DNA of 64,000 nucleotides, from the NCBI RefSeq assembly GCF_025854275.1, contig NZ_CP107567.1, positions 1,302,001-1,366,000 of the forward strand. The letters run 5' to 3'. This DNA comes from Streptomyces peucetius (GTDB taxonomy: Bacteria > Actinomycetota > Actinomycetes > Streptomycetales > Streptomycetaceae). Made by a program: the position numbers and the translations under genes. Under the pieces are notes generated by a model. The model had not been told where the DNA came from. It searched no databases and was given only the letters and a program-made list of their open reading frames with translations. The number at the start of each line of letters is the position of its first letter. Within the stretch, counting starts at the first letter, position 1. This document shows, in pieces, positions 1 to 4,860 of the stretch.

Positions 1-460
1 TCTCCGCGTAGTGCGACTCGCCCTTGAGGTCGACGACGGTCGACGGCGTCGAGGGGGCGAGCGGGTTGGGGAACGGCGCCGTGGTCAGGCCCACCAGGTC
101 GATGTAGTGCTGGAGCGCCGTGGAGGAGGGCGGAAAGCGCATCGCGCCCATCTCGGCGGTGAGCCCGTCCGTGCCGGTGCCCTCGAAGCCGACGGTGCGC
201 AGCCGGCCGCCGATCCGGTCGGCCTCGTAGACGACGGGCTTCAGGCCCATCTTCATCAGCTCGTACGCGGCGACGATGCCGGAGAGGCCGCCGCCGATGA
301 CGGCGACCTCGGCGCCGTGCTCGGTCGCCGGTATCTGTCCCAGACCAGCGGGGTTGGCCAGATAGTCGTCGTAGGCGTACGGGAAGTCCGGACCGAACAT
401 GGTGATCGGGGGCTGCGCGTCGCTGTGCTGGACGGCGGTGGTGGGCACCGTGGACGTCAT
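1..460 (-). CDS. FAD-dependent amine oxidase, DavB-like L-lysine (or other L-amino acid) 2-monooxygenase, N-terminal part
   Basis: Only the first 153 codons are in the window; the gene runs off the left edge. The ATG at 460 was chosen because it gives a full N-terminus ahead of the FAD-binding fold. Residues 54-61 read VIGGGLSG, the dinucleotide-binding GxGxxG turn, and an acidic residue at the end of the second strand (VVYEA, about residue 79) fits FAD ribose binding. The pre-domain segment with FGPDFP and HPAGLG-like NPAGLG resembles, from my memory of the family, the bacterial amino-acid 2-monooxygenases that oxidatively decarboxylate an L-amino acid to an amide (DavB for lysine, IaaM for tryptophan). 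The gene directly upstream encodes the matching amidase, 55 bp away in the same direction. Lysine as substrate is inferred from that pairing, not proved. Confidence 0.75.
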   Translation of the reverse strand, partial: MTSTVPTTAVQHSDAQPPITMFGPDFPYAYDDYLANPAGLGQIPATEHGAEVAVIGGGLSGIVAAYELMKMGLKPVVYEADRIGGRLRTVGFEGTGTDGLTAEMGAMRFPPSSTALQHYIDLVGLTTAPFPNPLAPSTPSTVVDLKGESHYAE

Positions 461-515
461 GGGGTACGGACTCCTTGCACGGAACTCGATGAAGCGGGGG
501 AAGGCAGGGGCGGCG

Positions 516-1316
516 TCAGCTCAGGGAGCCGTACAGCCCGGGACGGCGGTCGCGCAGATACGGGTTGGTCTCGCGGGAGGCGCCGAGGAGCACGGGGTCG
601 ACGTCGCCGATCACGAGCTCCTCCCCGCGTCCGGCACGGGCGCGGGTCGTGCCGTCGGGGCCGGCGAGACAACTGAGGCCGGTGAACTCGAACACGCCCT
701 CGTGCCCGGTCCGGTTCGCGTACGCGACGTAGAGCTGGCTCTCGAACGCCCGCGCCGGGACGAGGGATTCCGCCACGAAGGGGAAGGGGTGCATCAGCGC
801 GGTGGGCACCAGCAGCAGGTCGGTGCCGGCCAGCGCGTGGGCCCGGACGTTCTCCGGGAACTCCACGTCGTAGCAGATCAGCATGCCGATGCGGATGCCG
901 TCGAGCTCGGCCTGGACGACGGGCTCGTCGCCGGGGGTGAACCACTGCTGCTCGAAGCAGCCGAAGAGGTGCGTCTTGCGGTAGTTCGCGAGGCGGCCGC
1001 CGGACGCGTCGATCAGCTGGGCGGAGTTGTGGATCAGCTCGCCCGCGCGTTCGGGGTAGCCGTAGTGCACCGCGATGCCGTGGCGTACGGCGATCTCGGC
1101 GACGGCGTCCGCACCCGGCCCGTTCGCGGGCTCGGCCAGCACCGGCACGTCGTCCCCGATCGCGTATCCGGTCAGGAACAGCTCGGGGCAGACGAGCAGC
1201 CCCGCCCCGGCCCCGGCGGCCCTGCCCGCGGCCTCGTCCAGCACCTTCAGGTTCTCGGCGACCGAGCCCGGCCGGCCGGAACTCTGAAGCAGCGCGGTGC
1301 GCAGGGGCAGGGGCAT
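516..1316 (-). CDS. Carbon-nitrogen hydrolase (nitrilase family), DavA-like 5-aminovaleramide amidase
   Basis: 266 aa, the usual length for single-domain nitrilase-superfamily amidases. The catalytic triad is visible: Glu45 in CPELF, Lys114 in YRKTHLF and Cys148 in LICYDVEFPE. The segments LLVCPELFLTGYAIG and YGYPER are, from memory, close to Pseudomonas DavA, which hydrolyses 5-aminopentanamide to 5-aminovalerate. The ATG at 1316 follows GAGG at a good distance; the longer open frame upstream has no better start. With the 2-monooxygenase downstream it would turn an L-amino acid into the acid one carbon shorter. Family assignment is firm; the exact amide is inferred. Confidence 0.85.
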   Translation of the reverse strand: MPLPLRTALLQSSGRPGSVAENLKVLDEAAGRAAGAGAGLLVCPELFLTGYAIGDDVPVLAEPANGPGADAVAEIAVRHGIAVHYGYPERAGELIHNSAQLIDASGGRLANYRKTHLFGCFEQQWFTPGDEPVVQAELDGIRIGMLICYDVEFPENVRAHALAGTDLLLVPTALMHPFPFVAESLVPARAFESQLYVAYANRTGHEGVFEFTGLSCLAGPDGTTRARAGRGEELVIGDVDPVLLGASRETNPYLRDRRPGLYGSLS

Positions 1317-1396
1317 GGGTGACCTCGGGCGGGGGGGTGTGAACGGGAGACGCCTATGACGGTACGGTCCGGCGATCGAGCGGGACAAGGCGCGAG

Positions 1397-1457
1397 TGTT
1401 GCGCACGGATGGGCGATCTGTTGCGTCGTCGACGGGGGCGCGGCGATTCGTTGCACG
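1397..1457. promoter_or_regulatory. Triple TTGCG-type half-site cluster upstream of the amidase gene (candidate Lrp/AsnC operator)
   Basis: Three half-sites on the plus strand: TGTTGCGCA at 1397-1405, TGTTGCGTC at 1419-1427 and CGTTGCACG at 1449-1457. Their starts are 22 and 30 bp apart. The last two share the flank GCGAT. They lie 81-141 bp before the amidase start. A near-identical arrangement stands before the permease gene at 4231-4290. That the neighbouring AsnC-type regulator binds them is inference. Confidence 0.5.
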
Positions 1458-1703
1458 GGCTCACCCCCACCCCGCCCGAACCCGTTTCCGGGGGCTCCGC
1501 GCCCCCGCGCCTCTCCCCCTACGGCCCGGCGGCCGTGGGAGGTACCAGCGAGGCTGATCTCGCCGGTCCCTCCTCCGCCCCGAACCCCGCGCCTCAAACG
1601 CCGGCGGGGCTGAAAAGCAGCCCGACTCGGGGACACCTCCCTGCGCCCGGCGGCGTGGGAGGTCCCCCCACCCACGGCCGCCAGGCCGTAGGGGGAGAGC
1701 GGG

Positions 1704-1783
1704 GCCACCCCGCGAAGCACGGCACCGGAGCCTGGGGCGCAGCCCCCAACACCGCCCGCAAGGCAGCACAGGCCCGGCGAAGC
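1704..1783. repeat. 80-bp direct repeat, copy 1
   Basis: Matches 1868-1947 over the same 80-bp length. The first 29 bases are identical and the remainder differs at scattered positions without gaps. The two copies begin 164 bp apart. Confidence 0.85.
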
Positions 1784-1867
1784 ACGACGCCCGGAAGACG
1801 GACCGATACCCGAGACCTGGGACGAAGCCGGCGTTCAAGAGCACATCAAGCCCGGCCGGCGATCGAA

Positions 1868-1947
1868 GCCACCCCGCGAAGCACGGCACCGGAGCCCGGG
1901 CATCAGCCCCCAACACCGCCCACAGGGCGGCACACGCCCGGCGAAGC
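1868..1947. repeat. 80-bp direct repeat, copy 2
   Basis: Second copy of the repeat at 1704-1783, aligned gap-free. It contains no open frame of its own. Confidence 0.85.
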
Positions 1948-2064
1948 CAGCGTTCGGGGCCCCGGGATCCGGGGCGGGGCCCCGCGTCCCCCGACCCGCG
2001 CCTGCGGGGGCGCGGGGCCGGGTCCGGGCGGAGTCCGGTTTCGGGAAGGGGCGGGGGAGGGGGG

Positions 2065-2517
2065 CTACGCCGGCGCGCCCGACGTGAAGCGTCGCAGCAG
2101 CGGCGAAAGCACCAGCACCGACTTCGTCCGCTCCACGAACGGCTCGCCCGCGATGCGCTCGAGCACCCGCTCGAAGTGCCGCATGTCCGACGCGAAGACC
2201 TGGACGATCGCGTCCGCCTCACCGGTCACGGTGGACGCGGACGCGATCTCCGGGTAGCGCTTCAGACCGCGCTCGATCGCCTCCGGCGATGTGTTGCGGC
2301 TGCAGTAGATCTCGATGAACCCCTCGGTCGCCCAGCCGAGCGCCTTGGGGTCGACCCGTACGGTGAAGCCCGTGATGGCGCCTTCCGCCCGCAGCCGGTC
2401 CACCCTCCGCTTCACCGCCGGGGCGGACAGCCCCACCATCGAGCCGATGTCGGCGTAGGAACGGCGGGCATCCTCCGCCAGGGCGTGGACGATGCGCTCG
2501 TCGAGGTCGTTCAGCAA
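2065..2517 (-). CDS. Lrp/AsnC family transcriptional regulator
   Basis: 150 aa, the standard size. An N-terminal helix-turn-helix spans about residues 18-45 (YADIGSMVGLSAPAVKRRVD), followed by an AsnC/RAM ligand-binding domain with the TVTGEADAIVQV core. The start is TTG at 2517; an in-frame stop lies two codons upstream, so no longer start exists. Lrp-family proteins usually sense amino acids and control adjacent transport and catabolism. Here the gene sits between the permease and the amidase-monooxygenase pair in the same orientation, so an amino acid, plausibly lysine, is the likely effector. Candidate operators are the triple half-sites at 1397-1457 and 4231-4290; none is obvious before its own start. 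Confidence 0.92.
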   Translation of the reverse strand: MLNDLDERIVHALAEDARRSYADIGSMVGLSAPAVKRRVDRLRAEGAITGFTVRVDPKALGWATEGFIEIYCSRNTSPEAIERGLKRYPEIASASTVTGEADAIVQVFASDMRHFERVLERIAGEPFVERTKSVLVLSPLLRRFTSGAPA

Positions 2518-2541
2518 CTTTCACACCATGCTCGGTCCGGC

Positions 2542-2563
2542 CCGGGGAGCGACGGCTCCCCGG
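2542..2563 (-). terminator. Small GC hairpin after the permease gene
   Basis: A 9-bp perfect stem (CCGGGGAGC/GCTCCCCGG) with a 4-nt loop lies between the permease stop and the regulator start. It lacks a U-tract, so it may weaken rather than stop readthrough. Confidence 0.4.
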
Positions 2564-2608
2564 TCAGGACAGTATCCATCAGGGACACGGAGGGACGTTC
2601 TCCCCGTG

Positions 2609-4060
2609 TCACCGCAGGGCGGACCTGCGCATGCCGTAGGCGAAGTAGAGCGCGAGGCCCACCGCCATCCACACGCCGAACACGATCCAGGTGACGGTGT
2701 CGAGGCTGAACATCATCCACACGCAGAACCCGAAGCCGATCACCGGGAACAGCGGCGACAGCGGCACCCGGAAGGTCCGCTTCATCTCGGGCCGGGTCCG
2801 GCGCAGCACGACGACGGCCACGTTGACCAGGGCGAACGCGAACAGAGTGCCGATGCTGGTGGCGTCGGCCAGCTGGCCGAGGGGGACCGCTGCGGCGAGC
2901 ACGCCGCAGAACAGCGAGACGATCACCGTGTTGGCGCGCGGCGCACCGCTCTTCTTGTGGACCCGGGAGAACACCTTGGGCACCAGCCCGTCGCGGGACA
3001 TCGCGAACAGGATGCGCGTCTGCCCGTACAGCACGGTCAGCACGACACTGGCGATGGCGATGACGGCACCGGCGGCGAGGAGCACGGCCCAGAAGCTCTG
3101 GCCGGTGACGTCCTCCATGATTCCGGCCAGCGCGGCCTCCGACTCGCCGAAGCCCTTCCAGGGGCGGGCCCCGACGGCGACGGCCGCGACGAGGACGTAG
3201 AGCGTGGTGACGATCAGCAGGGAGAGCATGATGGCGCGCGGCAGGTCCCGCTGCGGGTTCTTCGCCTCCTCGCCGGCCGTGGAGGCGGCGTCGAAGCCGA
3301 TGTACGAGAAGAACAGCGAGGCGCCGGCGGCGCTGACGCCCGCCATGCCGAGCGGCATGAAGTTCTCGTAGTTGCCGCTGCGGAAGCCCTGGACGCCGAC
3401 GGCGCAGAAGAGCACCAGCGCGGCGATCTTCACCACGACCATGATGGTGTTGGCGCGGGCGCTCTCGCGGGCCCCGCCGAGCAGGAAGACCATGGCGAGC
3501 AGCACCACGATCAGCGCGGGCAGGTTGAAGAAGCCGCCGTCGCCGGGCGGGGCGGAGATCGCGTCGGGGATGGTGACGCCGATGGTGCCGGCGAGGAGTT
3601 CGTTGACGTACTCGCCCCAGCCCACGGCCACTGCGGCGACGGAGACCCCGTACTCGAGGATGAGACACCAGCCGCAGACCCAGGCGACGAGCTCGCCCAT
3701 GGTGGCGTAGGCGTACGAGTAGGAGGAGCCGGCGACCGGGATGGTGCCGGCCAGCTCCGCGTACGAGAGGGCGGAGAACAGTGCGGTCAGGCCGGCGATC
3801 ACGAACGAGACCGTGACGGCGGGGCCGGCCTCGGGGACCGCTTCGCCGAGGACGACGAAGATGCCGGTGCCGAGCGTCGCACCGATGCTGATCATGGTCA
3901 GCTGCCACATGGACAGCGAGCGGCGCAGCGCACCGCCTTCTCCCTGTCCGCCCTCCGCGACCAGGCGTTCGACCGGCTTGCGCCGCATCAGGCGGGCGCC
4001 GGCCCCTTGGGGCTTCGGCGACGGCTCGGTCGTGGGTGGCGCTGCGCCGTGGTCCAGCAC
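2609..4060 (-). CDS. APC superfamily amino acid permease, cationic amino acid transporter type
   Basis: 483 aa with about 12 hydrophobic segments, the first near residue 55 (ISIGATLGTGIF), which is the conserved GTGIF-type TM1 signature of APC transporters. SYAELAGTIPVAGSSYSY and SYIGFDAASTAGEEAKNPQ are typical of the CAT subgroup that moves arginine, lysine or ornithine. The first 45 residues are a hydrophilic, proline-containing cytoplasmic tail. It is the most upstream member of the catabolic cluster and would bring in the substrate. Substrate identity is inferred from subfamily and neighbours. Confidence 0.88.
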   Translation of the reverse strand: MLDHGAAPPTTEPSPKPQGAGARLMRRKPVERLVAEGGQGEGGALRRSLSMWQLTMISIGATLGTGIFVVLGEAVPEAGPAVTVSFVIAGLTALFSALSYAELAGTIPVAGSSYSYAYATMGELVAWVCGWCLILEYGVSVAAVAVGWGEYVNELLAGTIGVTIPDAISAPPGDGGFFNLPALIVVLLAMVFLLGGARESARANTIMVVVKIAALVLFCAVGVQGFRSGNYENFMPLGMAGVSAAGASLFFSYIGFDAASTAGEEAKNPQRDLPRAIMLSLLIVTTLYVLVAAVAVGARPWKGFGESEAALAGIMEDVTGQSFWAVLLAAGAVIAIASVVLTVLYGQTRILFAMSRDGLVPKVFSRVHKKSGAPRANTVIVSLFCGVLAAAVPLGQLADATSIGTLFAFALVNVAVVVLRRTRPEMKRTFRVPLSPLFPVIGFGFCVWMMFSLDTVTWIVFGVWMAVGLALYFAYGMRRSALR

Positions 4061-4437
4061 GTCGGGGCTCCTTCATCGCTGAGGGTCGGCGGGGGCGGCC
4101 CCGCGGCGGCCCGCAGGCAGGCAGAAGAAGCCCGCGCATGGGTGAGGGAACCGCCGAGCAGACGGTCACCGCCACTCCTGGTACGGGGGTCGAGCCTACG
4201 AGTCCGCAGCTCACAGCCGTAATGCATCGTTGTTGCGCATCAGCGGACAATCGTTGCGCGCTGGCGGGAGCCACGGGGAAACATTGCGCTCCGGTGAACG
4301 AGAGCCTTCATCACCGCCTCGGGCGGGCGTGCTCCGGGCGCCGGGCGGGGCGGGACACGTCGGGGCTGTCCGGACACGTCAGGACACTCGTGCCACAGGG
4401 CCGGTTCGCGAGGTTGATACTTCGGCGACTTCTGGGT
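4061..4437. other. Divergent intergenic region between the permease and the anti-sigma-like gene
   Basis: 377 bp without a supported gene. It holds the half-site cluster at 4231-4290 on the permease side and a GGGTAT element at 4434-4439 next to the plus-strand gene. Confidence 0.6.
4231..4290. promoter_or_regulatory. Triple TTGCG-type half-site cluster upstream of the permease gene (candidate Lrp/AsnC operator)
   Basis: Three plus-strand half-sites: TGTTGCGCA at 4231-4239, CGTTGCGCG at 4252-4260 and CATTGCGCT at 4282-4290. Their starts are 21 and 30 bp apart, against 22 and 30 bp in the cluster before the amidase gene. Spacing near whole helical turns fits an oligomeric Lrp-type protein. 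Binding is inferred. Confidence 0.5.
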
Positions 4438-4860
4438 ATGCGAGCCGTGATGAACGCACAGCCGCAGGTGGTGATCGAGGAATCGCCGCACAAGGAGAGC
4501 AGACACAGCGCGGGCGCCCGTACGGCCACTGCGGAGTTTCTGCTGCAGCACTGCCCCTGGGTCGACCCGGACGCGGTGCTGCTGGTCGTCTCGGAACTGG
4601 TCACCAACGCCGTGCGTCACACCGCCGCCGGCTGGTGGCGGCTGCGCCTGACGGCCGGACACGACACCCTGCTCGTCCAGCTGGACGACTCCAGTCCGCT
4701 GCCGCCGATCGCCCGGGAGCCGGACTTCACGGGCGGCGGCGGGTTCGGCTGGCACATGGTGCAGCGGCTCGCAGGCTGCGTCGAGGTCCGTCAGCTCCCT
4801 TACGGCAAGAGCATCCGGGCGACCTGGGTGCGCCCGGCCACGGCGCCGGCCGGCTACTGA
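4438..4860 (+). CDS. RsbW-like ATP-binding protein (HATPase_c_2, anti-sigma factor type)
   Basis: About 140 aa. It has a single GHKL ATPase domain with N-box SELVTNAVRHT near residue 58 and G-box GGGGFGWHMVQRL near residue 100, as in the small Streptomyces serine-kinase/anti-sigma family. The start is uncertain: ATG 4438, GTG 4447 and ATG 4450 are in frame and none has a Shine-Dalgarno. A GGGTAT element at 4434-4439 would place transcription start near 4447, giving a leaderless message from GTG 4447 or ATG 4450. It is convergent with a SigB/SigF-type sigma gene, a possible partner, but such ATPases are numerous in Streptomyces and the pairing is only inferred. Confidence 0.85.
   Translation: MRAVMNAQPQVVIEESPHKESRHSAGARTATAEFLLQHCPWVDPDAVLLVVSELVTNAVRHTAAGWWRLRLTAGHDTLLVQLDDSSPLPPIAREPDFTGGGGFGWHMVQRLAGCVEVRQLPYGKSIRATWVRPATAPAGY

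Follow-up and report, generated by a model that had tools for sequence, protein, structure and literature searches.

The window analysed here, a 64,000-nucleotide stretch of Streptomyces peucetius DNA (contig NZ_CP107567.1, positions 1,302,001 to 1,366,000), carries two groups of three short TTGCG-type half-sites, one in front of a CN-hydrolase amidase gene and the other in front of an amino-acid permease gene, with the gene of an AsnC/Lrp-type regulator lying between them. This arrangement raises the question of whether the two groups are copies of a single operator, which protein reads them, and with what effect on transcription. A preliminary description of the window had proposed that the adjacent AsnC-type protein employs one operator layout at both places, which would define a small regulon. 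Comparison with other genomes lends this proposal support, and more of it than had been claimed, and suggests that the regulator probably occupies three sites along a single helical face and thereby activates lysine uptake and breakdown.

A triple of half-sites repeated at two promoters

Both groups lie on the plus strand, and the genes that they precede on the minus strand. The amidase operator consists of a proximal half-site at 1399..1403 (TTGCG, which reads CGCAA on the gene strand), a middle half-site at 1421..1425 (TTGCG) and a distal half-site at 1451..1455 (TTGCA; TGCAACGAATCGCCG on the gene strand, the genus consensus being CGCAACGAATCGCCG); in the permease operator the proximal (4233..4237), middle (4254..4258) and distal (4284..4288) half-sites all read TTGCG. 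The preliminary description had picked out all six sites, calling them TTGCG-type, and had given the correct spacings, 22/30 bp for the amidase and 21/30 bp for the permease operator; its start coordinates were uniformly 2 bp too low. Read in gene direction, a strong arm CGCAA is present at every site; in the distal sites, as well as in the permease operator's middle site, it is followed, with a spacer of 5 bp, by a second arm, nnnCG. Spacings of 21–22 bp (two turns) and 30–31 bp (nearly three turns) place all three sites on one face of the helix, as is typical of Lrp-type operators.

Such a cluster could have arisen by chance, or be conserved sequence of no function, and it would favour this explanation that TTGCG is common by itself, with 76 occurrences in the window. 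This number is nevertheless below the 108 expected, which rules out an enrichment of single half-sites as the signal and leaves their arrangement as its source. We scanned for a strict form of the triple (TTGCRY-N15-17-TTGCRY-N24-25-TTGCRY), using the same pattern read backwards as the control, and obtained two matches in the entire 8.05-Mb genome, both at this locus, against none for the control; within the window, a scan allowing up to one mismatch returned only these two triples. When the pattern was loosened to TTGC with wider gaps, the same genome gave 17 matches against 12 for the control, a near-control level that indicates that the last letters of the half-site matter. A wider regulon in this genome was considered on these grounds and set aside: six of the looser matches fall within one tandem repeat and no further member can be claimed. 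The repeat, which has a 54-bp unit and contains six wider-spaced TTGC triples (G000:C1:4265769-4266096), is probably unrelated.

The strict triple recurs in 133 of 150 genomes of the genus, and the backwards control in five of 150. A second sample comprised 80 named loci, the best 80 of more, which were picked by AsnC similarity alone (87–94% identity to the protein of the window) and come from 79 strains with Streptomyces names and '[Kitasatospora] papulosa', some of which may coincide with members of the 150-genome set. Wherever enough sequence was present in these loci, a triple with at most one mismatch was found within 400 bp before the amidase gene (64/64) and, with a single miss (L262), before the permease gene (63/64). 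Every amidase operator (64/64) is spaced 22/31, and the permease operators are spaced 21/30 (62/63) with one exception of 21/31; these spacings persist even where the intervening sequence has diverged. The window's own amidase operator, with 22/30 and its TTGCA distal site, is 1 bp shorter than the genus norm. Altogether, the scan of the named loci yielded 130 matches in 1.31 million strand-bases and none for the reversed control, and 128 of the matches could be assigned to a target; the two others lie 324 bp before the amidase gene (L248) and directly after the AsnC gene (L305). The layout is thus conserved at orthologous loci and is not frequent at random, so that neither of the two comparative outcomes which the preliminary description had named as refuting it is observed, and an origin by chance or without function is so improbable that we regard it as refuted at the level of sequence. 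A harder set of 21 loci (L101-L121) was selected because the strict scan had given no match (13 loci) or one (8 loci): all 21 matches found there precede a target, 17 of the loci have a match, and in three of those with one strict match (L114, L117 and L118) the second operator appears once the sixth letter is freed.

A fixed distance to the predicted promoters

In both operators a predicted -35 element begins 10 bp after the proximal CGCAA: TTGTCC at 1383..1388 in front of the amidase gene and TTACGG at 4217..4222 in front of the permease gene, with predicted -10 elements TACCGT at 1359..1364 and TAGGCT at 4193..4198, all on the minus strand. From these elements, transcription is predicted to start near 1352 and 4186. 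This phasing is shared by the named loci, where TTG stands at +10 from the proximal CGCAA in 64 of 64 amidase promoters, as it does in 40 of 40 from another set, many members of which were found by the triple pattern itself; the permease promoters have TTA at the same place in 60 of 63 cases and otherwise TTT or TTC. A -10 element of the form TANNNT follows at +33/34 in 64/64 amidase and 61/63 permease promoters. A third target is the dimethylarginine dimethylaminohydrolase (DDAH) gene: of 38 DDAH promoters with the operator, 32 have TANNNT at +32 to +34 and 16 have TTG at +10. A site at a constant distance upstream of the -35, here one predicted from sequence, is characteristic of activators. 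Because all three target genes show the triple at one and the same distance above the -35, the geometry fits an activator touching the polymerase; the constant distance suggests activation, which we consider clearly the more probable sign of control.

The same protein and operator might instead repress transcription, with an assembly beside the -35 that hinders polymerase and is released by lysine. The proximal half-site ends merely 10 bp above the -35, where a dimer could contact that element, an additional TTGCG or CGCAA occurs within the 50 bp downstream of the proximal site in as many as eight of 65 amidase promoters and in one of 63 permease promoters, and effectors of the Lrp family, in passages of a survey of its archaeal members (PMC2995911), can either weaken or strengthen binding. 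Against this stand the position of the entire triple above the predicted -35 in every operator found (64/64 amidase, 63/63 permease) and the make-up of the DDAH promoters, whose frequent -10 and infrequent -35 matches are as expected for activator-dependent promoters; the reported induction by arginine of a related cluster together with its regulator gene (excerpt of PMC4569260) is compatible with either sign. Taken together, these points make repression unlikely.

The operator is linked to an AsnC-type clade

The predicted binder of both operators is the AsnC/Lrp-type protein encoded at 2065..2517 on the minus strand. It possesses both Lrp/AsnC domains (PF13404, 59.8 bits for a cut-off of 27; PF01037, 56.3 bits for a cut-off of 25) and stays below every NCBIfam equivalog cut-off that it matched, the best being LysM with 63 bits for a cut-off of 180. 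Were the triple bound by some other, unlinked regulator, the AsnC gene would be a mere neighbour, and the roughly 5 kb that separate it from the amidase operator in one locus (L116) could be taken in that sense. The distribution of the triple outside the genus argues otherwise. Among 268 non-genus genomes of the class, the strict triple was found in 24 and a control match in 11; an AsnC homologue (E<=1e-33) is present in 19 of the 24, with the triple beside it in every case, and the remaining five gave no AsnC match at this threshold and none of the queried genes beside their triples, as expected of background. Expressed by presence of the homologue, this amounts to 19 of 85 genomes with it against five of ~183 without (p = 7e-7; the counts come from two genome draws that differ by a few genomes).

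In all 19 non-genus loci the operator precedes a DDAH/deiminase-like gene, followed in 18, within the fetched stretch, by a gene for ornithine aminotransferase, a set that constitutes an arginine route; the exception (L080) shows a permease in that place. The AsnC homologue is the only gene that these loci and the Streptomyces loci have in common, a permease homologue being common to just some of them (e.g., L080, L166, L172), so that an AsnC-type gene accompanies lysine- and arginine-type triples despite their different enzymes. A further 18 of 59 AsnC loci with no strict match have a triple at up to one mismatch (one more, in G243, was scanned and gave none), and among the non-genus loci that miss it several show half-sites otherwise arranged and others none visible. 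The two- and three-turn spacing is moreover typical of Lrp-type assemblies, according to passages of PMC2995911. An unlinked regulator is therefore very unlikely in our view, and we are highly confident that the operator is real and belongs to this AsnC-type clade: sequence comparison establishes the operator, its conservation and spacing, its phasing to the predicted promoters and its association with the clade.

An arginine-type sister circuit

Streptomyces genomes also hold a paralogue of the regulator, ~48–57% identical and mostly located upstream of DDAH-rocD. The exact triple, allowing TTGCG or CTGCG, was found at 12 of 25 paralogue loci, in all 12 before DDAH and with a 21/31 spacing; with up to one mismatch at this fixed spacing, it is present in 19 of the 22 paralogue loci with DDAH. 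The misses are L094, L187 and L195, the first of which, from the S. peucetius genome itself, retains two CTGCG sites. In each of these 19 operators TTGTC stands 10 bp past the proximal site, and the middle site reads CTGCG in 16 of them, TTGCG in two and GTGCG in one. This middle site forms a nearly perfect dyad of 15 bp with 5 bp between its arms, the second of which matches in all five letters in 12 operators and in four of five in seven; a short dyad of this form is the kind of site used by an Lrp-type dimer.

In a tree of 106 regulators (144 columns, midpoint root, many open forks), the lysine-type regulator of Streptomyces clusters with arginine-type proteins from families f19 and f15 (99/95), apart from both the Streptomyces paralogue and the lysine-type group of family f17. 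The simplest reading, which falls short of proof, would be that regulators of this clade were recruited to lysine at least twice, in Streptomyces and in f17. Nine AsnC loci of the latter family (L145-L153) have the lysine 2-monooxygenase-like gene nearby in eight cases and only the permease in L149. The permease upstream regions read for eight of them contain TTGCG in seven cases and CGCAA alone in one; four of the f17 loci L202-L209 (L205, L206, L208 and L209) show TTGCG and CGCAA 41–42 bp apart before the permease, a different fixed arrangement.

The middle site of the arginine operator offers a hint of insulation between the two paralogues. The site reads TTGCG in G120 (L100) and G121 (L099), both of which are without the lysine-type regulator, and CTGCG in G028 (L309), where that regulator was not found and the monooxygenase gene is present. 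A half-site switch due solely to absence of the lysine circuit was discarded in view of the CTGCG in G028 and of the early branching of G120 and G121 among the arginine-type regulators of the genus.

A broader reading, which we hold tentatively and not quite to the point of preferring it, is that the triple represents, in Actinomycetes, an old, promoter-locked operator grammar for basic amino-acid breakdown. This grammar would be tied to a single AsnC-type clade that usually targets DDAH-rocD, and would have moved to davAB at least two times, in Streptomyces and f17. Both circuits would then coexist in Streptomyces with geometry and promoter distance kept, the arginine copy having mostly changed TTGCG to CTGCG, plausibly against cross-talk.

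Genes of the locus and the permease leader

What the operators control is suggested by the neighbouring genes. The amidase (516..1316, minus strand) contains the CN-hydrolase domain PF00795, and an activity as DavA-like 5-aminovaleramidase is proposed from the gene next to it. This neighbour, whose 5' part occupies 1..460 of the window on the minus strand, is lysine 2-monooxygenase-like (DavB); the whole gene is seen in another locus (L003:5763-7460), behind the amidase gene and on the same strand. The monooxygenase is colinear with PDB 3we0, an L-amino acid oxidase/monooxygenase (E 3e-238, 550 residues), an end-to-end similarity to a characterised enzyme that supports its placement as DavB. 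We take 3we0 to act on lysine, as a lysine 2-monooxygenase. Because of this colinearity, the operon reads as DavB plus a DavA-like amidase, which would convert lysine to 5-aminovaleramide and then to 5-aminovalerate. The permease (2609..4060, minus strand) is an APC carrier scoring above the TIGR00909 cut-off, with a predicted role in the uptake of cationic amino acids.

Regulator and monooxygenase (thresholds: better than E 1e-60 and E<=1e-150, respectively) agree in their presence in 148 of the 150 genus genomes, 143 having both and five neither (G037, G120 and G121, as well as G050 and G079, which are only 82% and 78% complete, respectively). Disagreement is confined to G028 and G073, both drafts of >1100 contigs, and G073 has a monooxygenase fragment at a contig end. 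A second monooxygenase homologue (61–63% identity) occurs elsewhere in G031, G035, G055, G058, G096 and G148, and G064 and G106 were likewise counted with two monooxygenase matches. In the window, a long GC-rich stretch (1500-2060), to which no gene is assigned and in which none was searched for, separates the AsnC gene from the amidase operator; the distance from regulator to amidase is larger here than in L018 or L022.

A conserved, GC-rich hairpin is located directly downstream of the predicted permease transcription start (4146..4170, minus strand). Across 22 Streptomyces leaders, 88% of its cells are paired, against at most 63.5% when it is slid; covariation is slight (one of ten pairs changed on both sides) and the fold of the window's leader has z = -1.1. 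The hairpin is possibly an attenuator or an mRNA stabiliser. A known RNA was sought in window 400-4600, where the two Rfam matches obtained are both far below gathering and neither falls in the leader, and a small leader open reading frame at the conserved GTGGAGTGGCGG block was excluded since reading frames there are not conserved.

Proposed mechanism

We propose that the protein encoded at 2065-2517 binds the three sites of each operator, probably as one dimer per site, each site offering one strong arm (gene-strand CGCAA) and one degenerate arm. Assembled at a fixed distance above the -35, it would recruit RNA polymerase to the two promoters, so that plentiful lysine would switch on the DavA-like amidase/lysine 2-monooxygenase operon together with the amino-acid permease. 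The permease transcript may include the regulator gene, which would create positive feedback. That lysine is the signal seems likely, given that the target is lysine 2-monooxygenase-like, and we infer its role as ligand, like binding and activation themselves, from the comparisons above.

Several observations weigh against this model, beyond the additional half-sites below some operators. The second arm at the 5-bp spacer matches poorly in the named loci, on average in 2.1–2.9 of five letters in permease and 1.2–1.9 of five in amidase operators; the dyad is therefore degenerate in the lysine operators, and the idea of a clear dyad at each of their sites is not borne out by these counts. The sign of control is read from geometry, at promoters that are predicted, and the substrate of the amidase is taken from its neighbour gene. 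Four genus loci of the harder set (L101, L108, L110 and L111) have no triple, although L101 retains two of the three sites, and none was found in the nine f17 loci L145-L153, those with davAB among them. Among the 79 non-genus AsnC homologues examined (from 85 genomes with one), 37 have a triple with up to one mismatch and 42 do not. With six permutations of the pentamer, chance matches averaged 3.0 in 62 non-genus loci (a set that includes L095, L096 and L122), against 21 real ones, and the reversed control gave one match in the arginine loci of the genus.

Relation to known systems and significance

Excerpts on archaeal Lrp-like regulators (PMC2995911) describe dimer sites at regular steps of two or three turns along one face of the DNA, activators with a dimer site just above the promoter, and lysine as a listed effector of FL11, LysM and TvFL3. 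The system described here resembles these multi-site operators in the regular two- or three-turn steps between its sites, which share one helical face. In contrast to them, its triple mixes a two-turn and a three-turn step, keeps its distance to the -10 fixed across the genus, and recurs in further families and ahead of genes of a different pathway. PutR (PMC6168545, seen in excerpt) is an Lrp-like activator of putA that works with proline. It is similar in that Caulobacter and its relatives encode it locally, at amino-acid catabolism genes, and in that it needs its amino acid; its amino acid and target, proline and putA, differ from those proposed for the window, and the excerpt gives no operator for it. 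The pairing of a lysine 2-monooxygenase with an amidase is like the DavB/DavA of pseudomonads; for DavA the likeness is looser, the closest PDB matches of the window's amidase being other amidases.

A close parallel to the arginine circuit is in Mycobacterium tuberculosis, where arginine is reported to induce the DDAH-roc cluster >20-fold and the adjacent regulator gene Rv2324 6-fold, and where a possible role of Rv2324, though no operator, has been described (PMC4569260, in part). In that cluster (Rv2319c-rocDE-Rv2323c) an AsnC-type gene likewise adjoins DDAH-rocD-rocE, the amino acid being arginine there and probably lysine in the window system. Loci of this kind in family f4, presumably the mycobacteria to judge by gene order, carry the triple in strict form (L079, L080) or with up to one mismatch (L158, L160, L162, L166, L171, L172), and the one-mismatch scan found none in L159, L167, L168 and L169. 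Archaeal Lrp proteins, PutR and the M. tuberculosis roc cluster lend the proposed mechanism indirect support. An excerpt of a study of S. coelicolor ArgR (PMC3293853) mentions no such system. Among the matches listed in a search of full-text literature (subscription journals lie mostly outside it), there was no publication on the operator, its promoter locking or the arginine sister circuit, and no functional study of this AsnC-type clade in Streptomyces. Lrp-type multi-site operators are a known kind of system; the present example, with its promoter locking and its arginine-type counterpart, appears to be new and has strong comparative support.

These findings point to a regulon of two promoters for the uptake and breakdown of lysine that is nearly universal in Streptomyces and can be tested, and give a likely role to an AsnC-type clade. 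They also provide a rule for the search for targets in other Actinomycetes, namely a step of two turns and one of three turns, followed after 10 bp by the -35. The presence of lysine and arginine circuits within one genome offers a test case for the protein and DNA letters that separate sister regulators and, should the broader reading of the triple as an old operator grammar be true, it would form a natural series showing how duplicated regulators diverge under a frozen operator layout.

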